Below, one piece after another: positions 23,783-29,656 of a DNA stretch of 64,000 nt (positions are counted from its first letter, which is position 1; each line of letters begins with the position of its first letter). Below the pieces are notes generated by a model that was not told the origin of the DNA, did no database searches, and worked only from the letters and a program-made list of their open reading frames with translations. Where the stretch lies: positions 1-64,000 of the forward strand of contig CALGMT010000055.1 of assembly GCA_937958885.1 (NCBI GenBank), given 5' to 3'. Position numbers and translations under genes: made by a program. Origin of the DNA: an uncultured bacterium (GTDB lineage: Bacteria; Verrucomicrobiota; Kiritimatiellia; CAIVKH01).

Positions 23783-24188
23783 ACGAAGGCTTCGCTCCAT
23801 CTTGCCCTCACCCCAACGCTCTCCCTCTTCGCGGGAGAGGGAGAAGCTAACGATGCGCGCGGCGACCGCGTCGAGCTGCGAATCGGCGAGGTTTTGCTTG
23901 CGCTGTAGATTCGCCGCTCCGCCGGCGGAAAGTAAATCTTCCTCTCCGGCGGCGGCGCCGGAGCACCAACACTGGAATGGCGATGGAGAATGGCAGGGCG
24001 GGACCTCCGGACCCGCCGATTCCTTTTCCATGGAGCGGGAGTCCGGCATGGCGTCTCGACAATTTTCCAGTGCGACGAAATTTCCATAGCATGGAAATCG
24101 CAAAAACGTTTTTTACACAGCATGGAAATTTTGGCCGGGAAAGTGCTTGTGCGAGGAATGCGGAGTGCTACTATTGAAGGACTTGTGT
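23783..24188. other. Intergenic stretch before the threonine leader
   Basis: About 400 bp without a gene. It holds a dispersed hairpin repeat at 23804-23848 (CTCTCCC...GGGAGAGG around TTCGC, related to about 7878-7925), then GC-rich filler, then the 31-bp-period array at 24079-24127, and finally the leader-peptide ribosome site AAGGA (24177-24181). The promoter of the hom operon must lie here, but I cannot pick it with confidence. Confidence 0.6.
24079..24127 (-). repeat. 31-bp-period direct repeat array, two copies (array B)
   Basis: A good copy (plus strand TTTTTACACAGCATGGAA) occupies 24110-24127 and a diverged copy ending AGCATGGAA occupies 24079-24096. The offset is exactly 31 bp, as in arrays at 11483 and 53519. 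Here the motif points away from the downstream operon, opposite to the other two arrays relative to the nearest following gene. It lies 62 bp before the leader-peptide start. Confidence 0.78.
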
Positions 24189-24239
24189 ATGAAGGCGCGG
24201 ACGATCCTCATTATGATTACGACGACGGGAGGCTCATGA
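24189..24239 (+). CDS. Thr/Ile-rich leader peptide of the hom operon
   Basis: A 16-codon reading frame, MKARTILIMITTTGGS, with its own ribosome site (AAGGA, seven bases upstream) and a TGA stop. Seven of 16 residues are Thr or Ile (Thr 5, 11-13; Ile 6, 8, 10), with Leu 7 and Met 9. It precedes a terminator and genes for Thr, Met and Ile synthesis. The composition recalls E. coli ThrL, which is also Thr/Ile-rich, although the sequences are not obviously homologous. It would act by ribosome stalling, not as a functional peptide. Confidence 0.85.
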   Translation: MKARTILIMITTTGGS

Positions 24240-24295
24240 GGGGCTCGCGGCGCATTCGGTTTGCACCCACCCCTCGTTTTCACGAGGGGTTTTTT
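24206..24295 (+). promoter_or_regulatory. Threonine/isoleucine attenuator with alternative pairings
   Basis: Four segments can pair in the classical way. Segment 1 (24206-24211, CCTCAT) pairs with segment 2 (24236-24241, ATGAGG), which overlaps the leader stop. Segment 2 (24237-24243, TGAGGGG) can instead pair with segment 3 (24270-24276, CCCCTCG). Segment 3 pairs perfectly with segment 4 (24283-24289, CGAGGGG), which is the terminator. Stalling on early Thr/Ile codons would free segment 2 to block the terminator. Termination would dominate when charged tRNAs are plentiful. The pairings are seen; the mechanism is inferred from known thr, ilv and trp attenuators. Confidence 0.75.
24270..24295 (+). 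terminator. Intrinsic terminator of the hom leader
   Basis: A 7-bp perfect stem CCCCTCG/CGAGGGG with a 6-base loop (TTTTCA), followed directly by six T residues (24290-24295). It lies between the leader peptide and hom, with no other gene to terminate, so it is an attenuator, not an end-of-operon signal. Confidence 0.9.
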
Positions 24296-24339
24296 GTATG
24301 CCGGACCGGCATCGCTGAGCGCGGGTCCGGAGCGCGGAC

Positions 24340-25650
24340 ATGGAAACGACTATGAATGAAATCGGCATCGGCTTGCTAGGATTTGGGACGGTGGGCGCGG
24401 GGGTCGTGGAAGGCCTCCAACGCCATGCGGATCTGATCGCGGCGCGCGTCGGCGCGCGGCCGGTGTTGCGGTGGATCGCGGACCTCGACCTTGAACGCGA
24501 CCGCGGGGTTGCGGTGGACCGCGCGCTGTTGACGCGCGATGCGAAGGCGGTGGTCGAGGATCCGGCGGTCGATGTGGTGATCGAGTTGATCGGCGGCGTC
24601 GGCATCGCGCGCGAGCTGGTGACGCGCGCGCTGGAGCTCGGCAAGCCGGTGGTGACGGCGAACAAGAAATTGCTTGCGGAGCACGGCGAGTCGCTGTTCG
24701 GCCTCGCCGCCGCGCGCGGCGCGGCGCTGGCGTTCGAGGCGAGCGTGGCCGGCGGAATTCCGATCATCAAGGCGCTGCGCGAGGGCCTCGTCGCGAATCA
24801 CATCGATGCGGTCTACGGCATCCTGAACGGGACGTGCAACTACATCCTGACCCGTATGGAGCGGGAGGGGCTGGCGTTTGACGCGGCGCTGAAGGCGGCG
24901 CAGTCCGAGGGGTATGCGGAGGCGGAGCCGAGCCTCGATATCGACGGGTACGACACGGCCCACAAGGCGGCGCTGCTCGCGACGCTCGCCTACGGATGTT
25001 CGGTTCCGATGCAGGCGCTGCATGTGGAGGGCATCCGCGGGATTGCGACGGATGAGATCCGCTACGCCGCCGAACTCGGCTATCGCGTGAAGCTGCTCGC
25101 GATCATCAAGCACGAGGCGTCCGGAATCAGCGCGCGGGTGCATCCGACCCTTGTGCCCGCCCGCCACATGTTGGGGTCGGTGGACGGGGTGTATAATGCG
25201 GTGCTCGTGCGCGGCGATATCGTCGGCGACACGCTGTATTACGGGCGCGGCGCGGGCCGGTTGCCGACCGCGAGCGCGGTGCTGGCGGATGTGGCCGATA
25301 TCGCGTCGCGCCTTGCGCGCGGCGAGAAAACGACGCCACCCGTATTGCCGCCGGGCGGCGCCCGCGCTCGATTGGTGGAGCTGGCGGAGGTGCGCGCCCG
25401 CTACTATTTGCGGTTGTCGTTGCTGGATCGTCCGGGTGTGCTCGCGCGCGTCGCGGCGATTCTCGGCGCGAACGGCATCAGCATCGCCTCGATGATTCAG
25501 AAGGAGCAGCGGCAGGGCGGGCATGTGCCGGTGATTGCCCTGACGCACGACGCGGAGGAACGGTCGTTTCGCGCGGCCCTCGCGGAAATCGACACGCTGG
25601 ACGTAGTCGGCGCGCCGACGGTCGCGCTGCGCATTGAAGATTTCGCATGA
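24340..25650 (+). CDS. hom: Homoserine dehydrogenase
   Basis: A 436-residue homoserine dehydrogenase, which reduces aspartate semialdehyde to homoserine in the Thr/Met branch. The N-terminal NAD(P) fold shows IGLLGFGTVGAGVV, and the catalytic domain shows GILNGTCNYILTRM and AEAEPSLDIDGYDTAHKAALLATLAYG with the catalytic Asp/Lys region. A C-terminal ACT domain (about 352-432, YYLRLSLLDRPGVLARVAAIL) suggests threonine feedback. ATG 24340 has a GGAG site; ATG 24352 is an alternative. It is the first structural gene after the attenuator and overlaps the next gene by four bases. Confidence 0.95.
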   Translation: METTMNEIGIGLLGFGTVGAGVVEGLQRHADLIAARVGARPVLRWIADLDLERDRGVAVDRALLTRDAKAVVEDPAVDVVIELIGGVGIARELVTRALELGKPVVTANKKLLAEHGESLFGLAAARGAALAFEASVAGGIPIIKALREGLVANHIDAVYGILNGTCNYILTRMEREGLAFDAALKAAQSEGYAEAEPSLDIDGYDTAHKAALLATLAYGCSVPMQALHVEGIRGIATDEIRYAAELGYRVKLLAIIKHEASGISARVHPTLVPARHMLGSVDGVYNAVLVRGDIVGDTLYYGRGAGRLPTASAVLADVADIASRLARGEKTTPPVLPPGGARARLVELAEVRARYYLRLSLLDRPGVLARVAAILGANGISIASMIQKEQRQGGHVPVIALTHDAEERSFRAALAEIDTLDVVGAPTVALRIEDFA

Positions 25651-26813
25651 AGTCGCTGGTGGTCATGTTGGAGAATGCTGCGGATCGGCCGCGCGCGGAG
25701 CTGGACGGGCGCACGCCGTTGGCCGTGGCGCGGTGTCCGGCGGCAGCGCGGCTCGCCTCCGAGGGCATGTCCGGCGTGCTCGGCAAGGCGTACGGCCGCG
25801 GACCCAGTTCTCCGGAGGCGCGTTTGGCGGAATTCGGCGGACTGGATGAGGATTCCGTCCGCTTTACTGCGCGCGGACCGCTTGAGGCCGCCTCGATGGA
25901 CGTCGATCTCGATGGATTCACGCATGCCTACCGAGGAGATTTCGTTACGCTGGACAACGGTGTCCTGCGCGATGGCCGGCTTCAGCGGATGACGCTGCAA
26001 GAAACGGCGCAACTGGCCGAGGCGGTGCAGGCGCGTTTCGATCCGACGCGCGTTCGTCTGCATGCGCTGGCGCCGGCTCGGGTGGCGGCGCTGGTGCGCG
26101 CGCCGGGCGAGGATCTGGCGCGCGGGAGTGCCCCGTGGCGGATGGAACGGGAGGAGGTCATCGATCTGCCCGCGCGCGGTTCGGAGATCATGGCGGAGAT
26201 GGTCGAGAAATCGGCGCAGGCGCTGGCGCGCCATCCGATCAACGACGTCCGCGTCGATTTGGGGGAGAATCCGGCGAATGCGATCTGGTTGTGGGGCGGT
26301 GGTCCGCTCGCGCGGCTCGCGCCGCCGCCGCTGCGCCTTCACGTGCTGACGCAGAGCGCAATGGCCGCCGGTTTCGCGCGTCTGCTCGGCGCGGGGGTCG
26401 AACCGCTGCTCGATCCGTGGACCGCCGCACAACCGTCCGACGTGGTGGACGCCGACGCGATGCGACGCCGGCTGGCGGCATGCGATCGGCTTGTGGTCTA
26501 TGTGGAGGCGCCGGACGCCTTCCTCCGCGGCCCGGCCGCGGAAAAGGTTCATCTGCTCGAGCGGATCGATGTGCTGCTGCTGCAGCCGCTAATCGATGTC
26601 TTTCGCCGGGTCAAGCAGCGTCGGTTCCTCCTGCTGTCCGTCGATGCGGCGGGCGCGGATGAGTTGGACCCGGCCATTCCGCAGCCGGTCGCGCTCTGGG
26701 GTTCGCACCTGGAGCCGGACGCGACCGCGCATTGGGATGAAAACGCGTGCCGCGACGGGGCGCTCTCGGGCCTTTCGCGGGAGGCGGTCATGTCGTTACT
26801 GATGGGAGATTGA
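25647..26813 (+). CDS. ApgM/phosphoglycerate-mutase-like protein lacking metal-binding His residues
   Basis: A 388-residue member of the alkaline phosphatase-like/ApgM superfamily. Relatives in threonine operons are annotated as proposed homoserine kinases. Family landmarks remain: RGPLEAASMDVDL, HAYRGDFVTLDNG, EAPDAFLRG, EKVHLLERIDVLL and QPVALWG. The usual metal ligands are largely missing. The opening GDGMAD is LENAAD, the GH after EAPD is LR, the DH pair is DA, and the later His before DPVP is absent. A Ser in the PGSD position may remain (GPSSPEAR). It may therefore be a regulatory or structural pseudoenzyme. Tight coupling to hom and lysC supports a role in this pathway. Confidence 0.75.
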   Translation: MKSLVVMLENAADRPRAELDGRTPLAVARCPAAARLASEGMSGVLGKAYGRGPSSPEARLAEFGGLDEDSVRFTARGPLEAASMDVDLDGFTHAYRGDFVTLDNGVLRDGRLQRMTLQETAQLAEAVQARFDPTRVRLHALAPARVAALVRAPGEDLARGSAPWRMEREEVIDLPARGSEIMAEMVEKSAQALARHPINDVRVDLGENPANAIWLWGGGPLARLAPPPLRLHVLTQSAMAAGFARLLGAGVEPLLDPWTAAQPSDVVDADAMRRRLAACDRLVVYVEAPDAFLRGPAAEKVHLLERIDVLLLQPLIDVFRRVKQRRFLLLSVDAAGADELDPAIPQPVALWGSHLEPDATAHWDENACRDGALSGLSREAVMSLLMGD

Positions 26814-26815
26814 GT

Positions 26816-28036
26816 ATGGCGTTGATTGTTCAAAAATACGGCGGCAGTTCCGTCGCCGATGTCGAGTGCATGCGCCGGGTCGCGAAGCGCATTGTGCAGA
26901 CGCGCGATGCGGGAAATCAGGTCGTGGTCGTGGTCAGCGCCATGGGCGACACGACGGACGAGCTGATTGAGCTGGCGCGCAAGATCAATCCGGAGCCGGA
27001 CGAGCGCGAGATGGACGCGCTGATGGCGACCGGCGAGCAGATTTCGTCCGCCGTGCTCACCATGGCGTTGCATGCGCTCGGCGCGGATGCGGTCTCGATG
27101 ACCGGGCCGCAGGCCGGCATTTACACCGATGATGTCCACACGAAGGCGAAAATCCGCGCGCTCAAGCCGCGGCGTCTGTTGGCGCATCTCAAAAAGGGCC
27201 GTATTGTCGTCGTCGCGGGCTTTCAGGGCCTGAATCCGAACGAGGACATCGCGACGCTCGGACGCGGCGGGTCGGACACCACCGCCGTTGCCCTCGCCGC
27301 GGCGATCAAGGCGGATCGCTGCCAGATCTTGAAAGACGTTGAGGGCGTGTACACCGCGAACCCGCGCATCGTGCCCGATGCGCGGAAGCTGGACGAAATT
27401 GCGTATGATGAAATGCTGGAGCTGGCCAGCATGGGCGCGGAGGTGCTCCAGTCGCGCGCGGTCGAGTTTGCAAAGAACCACGGCGTTACGCTGGAAGTCA
27501 TGTCGAGTTTTGTCGAAAAACCGGGAACATTGGTACGCGAAGAGGTCAAGAATATGGAAGACATTGTCGTGCGGGGTGTGGCGTCGGACAAAAATCAGGC
27601 AAAGGTGACCGTGAAGGGGCTGGCAGACAAGCCGGGCGTCGCGGCCTTGATGTTCACCGAGCTCGCGCGCAAGAACATCAACGTGGACATGATCGTCCAG
27701 AACGTCAGCGAAAAGGGCGAGACGGACATCACGTTCACCGTGCCGCGCGGCGATCTGGCCAAGACCCGGCGCGCAGTCGAGGCGATGCAGGCCGATCTCG
27801 GCGCGAAATCCATTATTGAGGATGAAGACATCGCAAAGGTCAGTATTGTCGGCGTTGGAATGCGGAGTCATTCGGGCGTCGCGGCCCGCATGTTCGATGC
27901 CCTTGCCAAGCATAAGATCAACATCGAGATGATCGCCACGTCGGAAATCAAGATCTCTGTGGTGATCCGAAAGGGCGAGGCCGACAAGGCCGTCCATGCG
28001 CTGCACAAGGCATTCGAACTGGGCAAGAAAAAATAG
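26816..28036 (+). CDS. lysC: Aspartate kinase
   Basis: A 406-residue monofunctional aspartokinase, the first step from aspartate to Lys, Thr and Met. The kinase domain opens with VQKYGGSSVAD and contains MATGEQISSA, GFQGLNPNEDIATLGRGGSD and CQILKDVEGVYTANPRIV. Two ACT-type regulatory domains occupy about 265-400. It starts two bases after the previous stop with a GGGAG site. Allosteric control by Lys/Thr is likely, in addition to the operon attenuator. Confidence 0.96.
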   Translation: MALIVQKYGGSSVADVECMRRVAKRIVQTRDAGNQVVVVVSAMGDTTDELIELARKINPEPDEREMDALMATGEQISSAVLTMALHALGADAVSMTGPQAGIYTDDVHTKAKIRALKPRRLLAHLKKGRIVVVAGFQGLNPNEDIATLGRGGSDTTAVALAAAIKADRCQILKDVEGVYTANPRIVPDARKLDEIAYDEMLELASMGAEVLQSRAVEFAKNHGVTLEVMSSFVEKPGTLVREEVKNMEDIVVRGVASDKNQAKVTVKGLADKPGVAALMFTELARKNINVDMIVQNVSEKGETDITFTVPRGDLAKTRRAVEAMQADLGAKSIIEDEDIAKVSIVGVGMRSHSGVAARMFDALAKHKINIEMIATSEIKISVVIRKGEADKAVHALHKAFELGKKK

Positions 28037-28060: not shown

Positions 28061-29656
28061 ATGAAAACGCGCGTCGAAATCTACGACACGACCCTGCGCG
28101 ATGGGGCGCAAGGGGAGGGGATCTCGTTTTCCGGGGTCGGAAAGATTCTCGTCGCGAAGCGGCTTGACGAGTTCGGCGTGGACTACATCGAAGGGGGCTA
28201 TGCGGCGTCGAATCCCAAGGACATGGAGTTTTTCCACGCGATCAAGAGGGAAAAATTGCAGCATGCAAAGATCGCCGCCTTCGGCAGCACGCGGCGCGCG
28301 GGTGTGCGGGCGGAGGACGATGCGGGCTGCCGGGCGCTGATCGAGGCCGATACGCCGGTCTGCACGATATTCGGCAAGAGCTGGCGCCTGCACGTCAAAG
28401 AGGTGCTGCGCACGACCGAGGACGAAAACCGCGCGATGATCGCCGACACCGTTCGCTTTTTGAAGGCGCACGGAAAGGAAGTGATCTACGATGCGGAACA
28501 CTTCTTCGACGGCTACCGCGACAGCGCCGAGCACGCGGTCTCCACGCTGCGCGCCGCGCTGGATGCGGGGGCGGACCGCGTCGTCCTGTGTGACACGAAT
28601 GGCGGCTCGCTGCCGGAGCAGGTCGCGGACATCGTCCGGGCGGTGCGCAAGGCGCTGCCCGACGCGCGCCTCGGCATTCACACGCATAACGATTCCGAGC
28701 TCGGCGTCGCCAACTCGCTCGCGGCGGTCGAGGCGGGCGCCCCGCATGTGCAGGGTACGATCAACGGGTTTGGCGAGCGCGTGGGGAACGCGAACCTCGT
28801 GTCGATCATTCCGAATCTGATCCTGAAACTGGGCTATCCGTGCATGACCCCGGCGAGCTTGAAGCAGCTCAAGGCCGTGTCGCAATTCGTCTATGAAATG
28901 GCCAACGTGCGGCCGAACACGAAGCAACCGTTTGTCGGCGACAGCGCGTTCGCGCACAAGGCGGGCATGCATGTGGACGGCGTGCGGAAGCTGGCGTCGA
29001 GTTTCGAACACATCGATCCGGAATCCGTCGGCAACCAGCGCCGCATCTTGATCTCGGAGCTCTCCGGGGCGAGCAACGTATTTCTCAAGGCGGTCGAGAT
29101 GGGCCTGGCGCTGGACAAAAACGCGCCGGAGGTGAAGCAGATTCTCCGCGAACTGGAGAAGCTGGAGAAGAAGGGCTATGCATTCGAGGCGGCGGAAGCC
29201 TCCTTCAAACTGCTGATCCAAAAAGTCCTCAAGCGGCACAAGCCCTTTTTCGAGCAGCTCGGTTACCGCGTGATCGTTGAGAAGCGCGACAAAAGCGAGC
29301 AGAGCCTCGCCGAGGCGACCGTGAAGCTGGCGGTCAACGGCGAGGTCGAATCGACGGTCGGCGAAGGCGACGGCCCGGTGGATGCGCTGAACGAAGCCCT
29401 GCGCAAGGCGTTGACCCGTTTTTATCCCTCGATCCGCGACGTTTCACTGGTGGATTACCAGGTGCGCATCCTCGATCCGGAGGAAGGCACCGGCGCGAAG
29501 ACGAGGGTGTTAATCGAATCGACGGACGGCAAACAGTCGTGGGGCACGGTCGGCGTTTCCGCGAACCTTATTGAGGCGTCTTGGGAAGCCCTCGTGGACA
29601 GCGTTGAGTACAAGCTGTTTCTCGAAGAACAATCCTCTGAAACGCGAAAAAGCTGA
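28061..29656 (+). CDS. cimA: (R)-Citramalate synthase
   Basis: A 531-residue HMGL-like enzyme that condenses pyruvate and acetyl-CoA to citramalate, a threonine-independent route to 2-oxobutyrate for isoleucine. The TIM barrel opens with VEIYDTTLRDGAQGEG and holds metal ligands in GIHTHNDSELGVANS and the NGFGERVGNANL motif. The C-terminal LeuA-type allosteric domain follows (about 375-520). The family is CimA rather than 2-isopropylmalate synthase because of the GISFS opening and the FGSTRR/TIFGKSW segments. A GGAGG ribosome site is present. Its presence in a Thr operon explains Ile codons in the leader. Confidence 0.92.
   Translation: MKTRVEIYDTTLRDGAQGEGISFSGVGKILVAKRLDEFGVDYIEGGYAASNPKDMEFFHAIKREKLQHAKIAAFGSTRRAGVRAEDDAGCRALIEADTPVCTIFGKSWRLHVKEVLRTTEDENRAMIADTVRFLKAHGKEVIYDAEHFFDGYRDSAEHAVSTLRAALDAGADRVVLCDTNGGSLPEQVADIVRAVRKALPDARLGIHTHNDSELGVANSLAAVEAGAPHVQGTINGFGERVGNANLVSIIPNLILKLGYPCMTPASLKQLKAVSQFVYEMANVRPNTKQPFVGDSAFAHKAGMHVDGVRKLASSFEHIDPESVGNQRRILISELSGASNVFLKAVEMGLALDKNAPEVKQILRELEKLEKKGYAFEAAEASFKLLIQKVLKRHKPFFEQLGYRVIVEKRDKSEQSLAEATVKLAVNGEVESTVGEGDGPVDALNEALRKALTRFYPSIRDVSLVDYQVRILDPEEGTGAKTRVLIESTDGKQSWGTVGVSANLIEASWEALVDSVEYKLFLEEQSSETRKS

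Follow-up and report, generated by a model that had tools for sequence, protein, structure and literature searches.

The question raised by this locus is whether a short open reading frame (ORF) and an intrinsic terminator, which lie together in front of the homoserine dehydrogenase gene hom, control the genes downstream by stalling of the ribosome. The locus is part of a 64 kb stretch of DNA, the whole of which was analyzed and is called the window here. The source had been thought to be a PVC bacterium, and it is very probably of the class Kiritimatiellae (Verrucomicrobiota). Judging from the sequence and its conservation in relatives, we think that the element very probably works by ribosome-mediated transcription attenuation, with charged tRNA-Thr and tRNA-Ile as its signals, and controls hom-apgM-lysC-cimA. 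That is, the ribosome-stalling attenuator proposed in the initial annotation is supported by frame-specific codons, a conserved terminator, an antiterminator strand and a promoter motif.

The leader, the terminator and the genes downstream

The features of the locus, except the pairing segments, are as follows.

24147 to 24174, plus strand: predicted promoter (TTGTGC 24147-24152, 16 nt, TACTAT 24169-24174), from motif conservation
24189 to 24239, plus strand: leader ORF, ATG 24189 to TGA 24239, 16 codons and TGA, encoding MKARTILIMITTTGGS followed by the stop
Within 24189 to 24239, plus strand: control codons of the leader, Thr at 5 and 11-13, Ile at 6, 8 and 10
24269 to 24295, plus strand: intrinsic terminator, hairpin 24269-24290 and T run to 24295 (T6 = 24290-24295)
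24340 to 25650, plus strand: hom, homoserine dehydrogenase (NF004976, 525 bits against a cut-off of 205; start ATG 24340 or 24352)
25647 to 26813, plus strand: apgM-like protein, possible homoserine kinase (below the TIGR00306 and TIGR02535 cut-offs)
26816 to 28036, plus strand: lysC, aspartate kinase (NF005155, 594 bits against a cut-off of 346)
28061 to 29656, plus strand: cimA, citramalate synthase (TIGR00977, 749 bits against a cut-off of 450)

When the sequence was read again, the 16-codon leader carried Thr and Ile at exactly the positions first reported, and every coordinate that had been given for the leader, the pairing segments and the terminator was correct. The genes hom, apgM-like, lysC and cimA follow in this order directly 3' of the leader and the terminator, and they make precursors of Thr and Ile. 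Many relatives likewise have an apgM-like gene, lysC or both after hom, and cimA comes later. The initial gene names hold for hom, lysC and cimA, which scored well above their cut-offs, but not securely for apgM, whose product scored under every curated NCBIfam cut-off, including that of TIGR02535, the 'proposed homoserine kinase'. A role as homoserine kinase is therefore plausible from the position of the gene only, and the protein may be a divergent member of the phosphoglycerate mutase type of homoserine kinase.

The terminator claimed between the leader and hom, which is one mark of an attenuator, is indeed present. In a scan of 6 kb it ranked first of 5 sites and had the longest stem, although chance alone would give 4.7 sites if quality is disregarded. 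Folding of the RNA that spans the leader start and the T tract (24189-24300) is better than that of shuffled sequences (z = -3.3).

Conservation of the leader and of its codons

We gathered 24 elements by a covariance model and a survey of 110 hom loci. The leader architecture was found upstream of hom at 24 of these 110 same-class loci, a chosen and not a random sample, in 7 families, and it was absent from the remaining loci. In the family of the window, 7 of 8 genomes possess it. The leader peptides of this family, each given up to its stop, include MKRFVSIITIAITTTGGF, MNSAATIIITITTTGGF, MKTLVTITITVGGT, MKTTTVIAITTTSCA, MKFGTTITITKIADS and MHTTITTVTVIGDS; those of other families include MKILTVIITVAGSS, MVQTKVTTIIVGFS, MKTVVTKIIIVSGGS and MYAMIVITMVRNS. 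An exact pattern that was blind to genes matched 11 of 288 class genomes, once in each and always directly 5' of hom, and the reversed control pattern gave 0 matches. Spread to the rest of the phylum was rejected: in a phylum-wide sample the covariance model found nothing convincing outside the class, and the weak matches there fell in coding sequence or at ordinary terminators, away from any operon gene. Extra copies in one genome of the class (G005, contig C37) were also rejected as simple repeats.

The codon content of the leaders is shown by the following counts. The 24 leaders, 13-19 codons long, contain 74 Thr residues against 14 expected and 55 Ile residues against 18 expected, when the expectation is taken from the composition of the operon's proteins. 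Thr and Ile together make up 37% of the residues in frame, and 5% and 3% when the other two frames are read. Each of the four Thr codons and each of the three Ile codons is used. Val occurs as often as expected, and Leu and Ala are depleted; we therefore rejected Val and Leu as extra signals of the hom leader, since neither is enriched. The leaders were partly recognized by their content, so some ascertainment bias in these statistics is unavoidable. The first reading of the locus had called for Thr and Ile codons to be compared upstream of hom in relatives, and across the 24 elements their enrichment is confined to the leader frame. The leader ORF is thus enriched in codons for the amino acids made by the operon, a further mark of an attenuator.

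These data bear on a simpler explanation, namely that the hairpin merely ends an upstream transcript, or terminates constitutively before hom, and that the Thr/Ile ORF arose by chance or as a simple repeat of the GATTACGA type. Intrinsic terminators are common, repeats like GATTACGA do occur in these genomes, and they gave the false model matches in G005. However, about 490 bp lie between the end of the upstream carbonic anhydrase gene and the hairpin, and this interval holds the promoter motif; the Thr/Ile bias is found in one frame only and extends over all four Thr and three Ile codons; and the arrangement is kept before hom in 7 families. We consider this explanation very improbable.

The promoter motif, TTG-N19/20-TAnnnT, lies ahead of 22 of the 24 leaders, where 0.7 are expected in shuffles. 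In the window, transcription would be expected to start near 24181, as far as the motif indicates, and the leader ORF begins about 15 nt after the predicted -10 box. The predicted -10 box and the start codon are only 8-14 nt apart in G029 and in the majority of the members of the window's family, meaning that the leader mRNA would be almost leaderless there. The leader of Sinorhizobium meliloti trpL, which is leaderless, offers a precedent for such an attenuator (PMC7298713). The ribosome site of its own that had been ascribed to the leader is doubtful. The promoter motif puts the expected transcription start near 24181, so that the Shine-Dalgarno-like AAGGA (24177-24181) is at this position or 5' of it and is probably untranscribed or only partly transcribed; Shine-Dalgarno cores precede only 6 of the 24 leaders.

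The short distance also bears on the idea that a T-box or riboswitch binds tRNA or a small molecule at the terminator, so that translation of the leader would not be needed. Elements of that kind control amino-acid operons in other phyla, but about 15 nt between the predicted -10 box and the leader ORF leave no room for an aptamer, and no Rfam family, T-box and amino-acid riboswitch aptamers included, exceeded its threshold in the leader region. We regard this idea as barely credible.

Alternative pairings and the proposed mechanism

The pairing segments are as follows.

24206 to 24211: segment 1, CCTCAT, pairing with ATGAGG 24236-24241 in the window
24237 to 24243, plus strand: segment 2, antiterminator strand TGAGGGG, overlapping the leader stop codon, from complementarity to the terminator arm
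24270 to 24276, plus strand: segment 3, CCCCTCG, common to the antiterminator (2:3) and the terminator (3:4)
24283 to 24289, plus strand: segment 4, CGAGGGG

The pattern of segments 2, 3 and 4 and a T run was found at one place in the 64 kb window and not at all in 100 shuffles. In the relatives, segment 2 (GAGGGG) abuts or overlaps the leader stop and pairs with the 5' arm of the terminator. Its GGGG core was identified in 22 elements, and in 20 of them it starts no more than two bases from the end of the leader stop; near the stops of G059 and G028, no such core was found. The placing of segment 2 on the leader stop in the initial annotation is thus borne out, the core being at the stop in most elements. 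The complementarity of segment 2 to the terminator arm exceeds that of shuffles with a combined p = 1e-7, in a calculation that ignores common descent.

In family f8 and in several members of family f5, the terminator arm is changed from CCCCTC to CCCCGC, and segment 4 is altered to match. Segment 2 carries a matching change, from A-U to C-G, in four members of two families, namely three of f8 and G011 of f5; in two f8 members the covarying position is mismatched. A count of pairs in an alignment of 10 sequences gave no covariation. MAFFT had misplaced the terminator arm in 4 of 15 sequences, so the covariance model was built from 10 sequences, and in the final pair counts the alignment registers were set by script. 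The GGGG core is nearly invariant, and the covariation therefore rests on few positions; it is nevertheless real for the 2:3 pairing.

The initial annotation had described a full set of mutually exclusive pairings and had suggested that compensatory changes be sought in each of them. Pairings 2:3 and 3:4 are conserved and show the coordinated A-U to C-G change in the four members mentioned above. In contrast, the 1:2 pairing is present in the window but shows no conservation beyond chance (combined p = 0.78). The four-segment model with a conserved protector helix was therefore rejected, and segment 1 is dispensable. A protector helix is found in the best-known attenuators, although the mechanism works without it. 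What is conserved at the leader stop is an antiterminator that excludes the terminator, and by its geometry a ribosome there would mask segment 2.

Based on the anatomy and the conservation, we infer the course of stalling, termination and read-through as follows. Transcription would start just 5' of the leader ORF. With ample Thr and Ile, the leading ribosome would go on to the UGA at 24237-24239 and mask segment 2 (GAGGGG); segments 3 and 4 would then pair, and RNA polymerase would halt near 24295. When Thr or Ile is short, the ribosome would stall on the Thr and Ile codons of the leader, segment 2 would be left free to pair with segment 3, no terminator would form, and hom-apgM-lysC-cimA would be transcribed.

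The positions of the codons suit this scheme. Given the usual footprint of a ribosome, one sitting at the leader stop codon covers segment 2, and the edge of one stalled three codons 5' of the stop falls just short of it. In the window the last Thr or Ile codon lies three codons ahead of the stop, so the front edge of the stalled ribosome should fall short of segment 2. The same distance is found in 10 of the 24 leaders, and it is at most 6 codons in 24 of 24.

The leader ORF might instead act on translation, by coupling or reinitiation at hom or through Rho access, with the hairpin of secondary importance. Leader ORFs near a gene start can boost translation via reinitiation (PMC4833913). However, the leader stop is about 100 nt from hom, compared with a peak at 10-16 bp in that study, and the conserved parts are the T-tract terminator and the antiterminator, with no structure over the hom start. 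We think that an action on translation is very unlikely, and we favor transcription attenuation by the ribosome.

Leucine leaders, known attenuators and minor observations

A leucine-rich leader with a terminator is also found upstream of leuA in the family of the window, for example MNLLALRLALLSLALRAAVG followed by its stop in G002, in which the last codons and the stop (GGCGGTGGGTTGA) complement the terminator arm ACCCACCGCC. Leucine-rich leaders with an intrinsic terminator lie upstream of leuA at L231 (G002), L234 (G001), L235 (G004), L233 (G005), L230 (G007) and L232 (G006), and at L295, L299, L291, L298 and L300. Similar leaders with terminators occur in families f18 (MIRSGLLRRLLLLLLLEG and its stop), f11, f8, f15 and f24. 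In the genome to which the window belongs, Leu is less prominent in the leuA leader, and the T run is short. At ilvB, trpE and hisG in the window's family, no leaders were seen. By their composition and arrangement, the leuA leaders are a second, putatively leucine-sensing attenuator system in the class. The finding of attenuators at two operons suggests that attenuation is a general strategy of amino-acid control in this class.

In Escherichia coli, thrL encodes a short Thr/Ile-rich leader peptide and uses alternative antiterminator and terminator hairpins to control the pathway from aspartate to threonine. The Kiritimatiellae element resembles thrL and its Rfam family RF00506 in the Thr/Ile-rich leader, the alternative hairpins and the pathway controlled, but it differs in having no conserved 1:2 helix, in the gene set of hom, lysC and cimA, and in the antiterminator at the stop. 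At gathering thresholds, Rfam gave one tRNA and nothing else in the 64 kb window; at E <= 10 it gave nothing credible in the leader region, and RF00506 (Thr_leader) was unmatched. RF00506 exceeded its gathering cut-off in 0 of 57 class genomes and in 1 of 14 control genomes. Hence no membership in the gammaproteobacterial family can be detected for the element, in agreement with the non-homology first supposed.

The attenuator RNA of S. meliloti trpL has its 5' end at the leader start codon or very close to it (PMC7298713), a likeness which in Kiritimatiellae is only predicted; trpL senses Trp, and both operon and phylum are different. A leader ORF rich in product codons is likewise found in the leader-peptide attenuators of Actinobacteria and in the bacilli, in their histidine leader; these belong to other phyla and serve other amino acids and genes (PMC1262725, PMC2965389). 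Leader-peptide attenuation has thus been described in Proteobacteria, Actinobacteria and Firmicutes (PMC2965389; PMC1262725); until the bacilli case was added in 2010, such systems were said to be known only in the first two, and their convergent origin has been proposed as possible (PMC2965389). For threonine operons in Actinobacteria, no RNA element was reported (PMC1262725). PMC4833913 refers to one comparative attenuation survey (Mol Biol 2010, 44:128). In the open-licence literature, we found no report of leader-peptide attenuators in Verrucomicrobia, Lentisphaerae or Kiritimatiellae. The mechanism itself is textbook; the lineage is new for it as far as the reports found go, and the architecture is a reduced one.

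Tentatively, and with somewhat more doubt than confidence, we suggest that Kiritimatiellae independently evolved a stripped-down attenuator and use it for Thr/Ile before hom and for Leu before leuA, and thus at several operons, with no protector helix, near-leaderless translation and an antiterminator starting in the stop codon. If this is true, it implies tight coupling of transcription and translation in a lineage of the PVC superphylum. Attenuation of this kind works only if a ribosome closely follows RNA polymerase; a conserved attenuator is therefore evidence for such coupling at the sequence level, and it gives a ready assay for coupling in this lineage.

Some minor observations were also made. 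G003, which belongs to the same family as the window, has lost the hom leader and kept a mismatched terminator (L083); at leuA it has kept the leader, and the terminator is broken (L236). Both attenuators look to be decaying, in what looks like a natural loss of the system. In G005, two near-identical GATTACGA-like repeat units on the minus strand of L168 (contig C37, 67-176 and 5540-5649) match the model; CCCCTCC..GGAGGGG hairpins follow them, and no hom is nearby. At the hom locus of G002 (L111), two overlapping matches lie in different frames, and ilvB of this genome is also split; the split hom is probably due to a frameshift or a sequencing error. Finally, copies of a motif around GTTTTTTACACAGCATGGAAATTTT / TTTCCATAGCATGGAAA are present at 24060-24140 of the window, upstream of hom, and at L264, upstream of trpE in G000; this motif is possibly a dispersed repeat or an operator.
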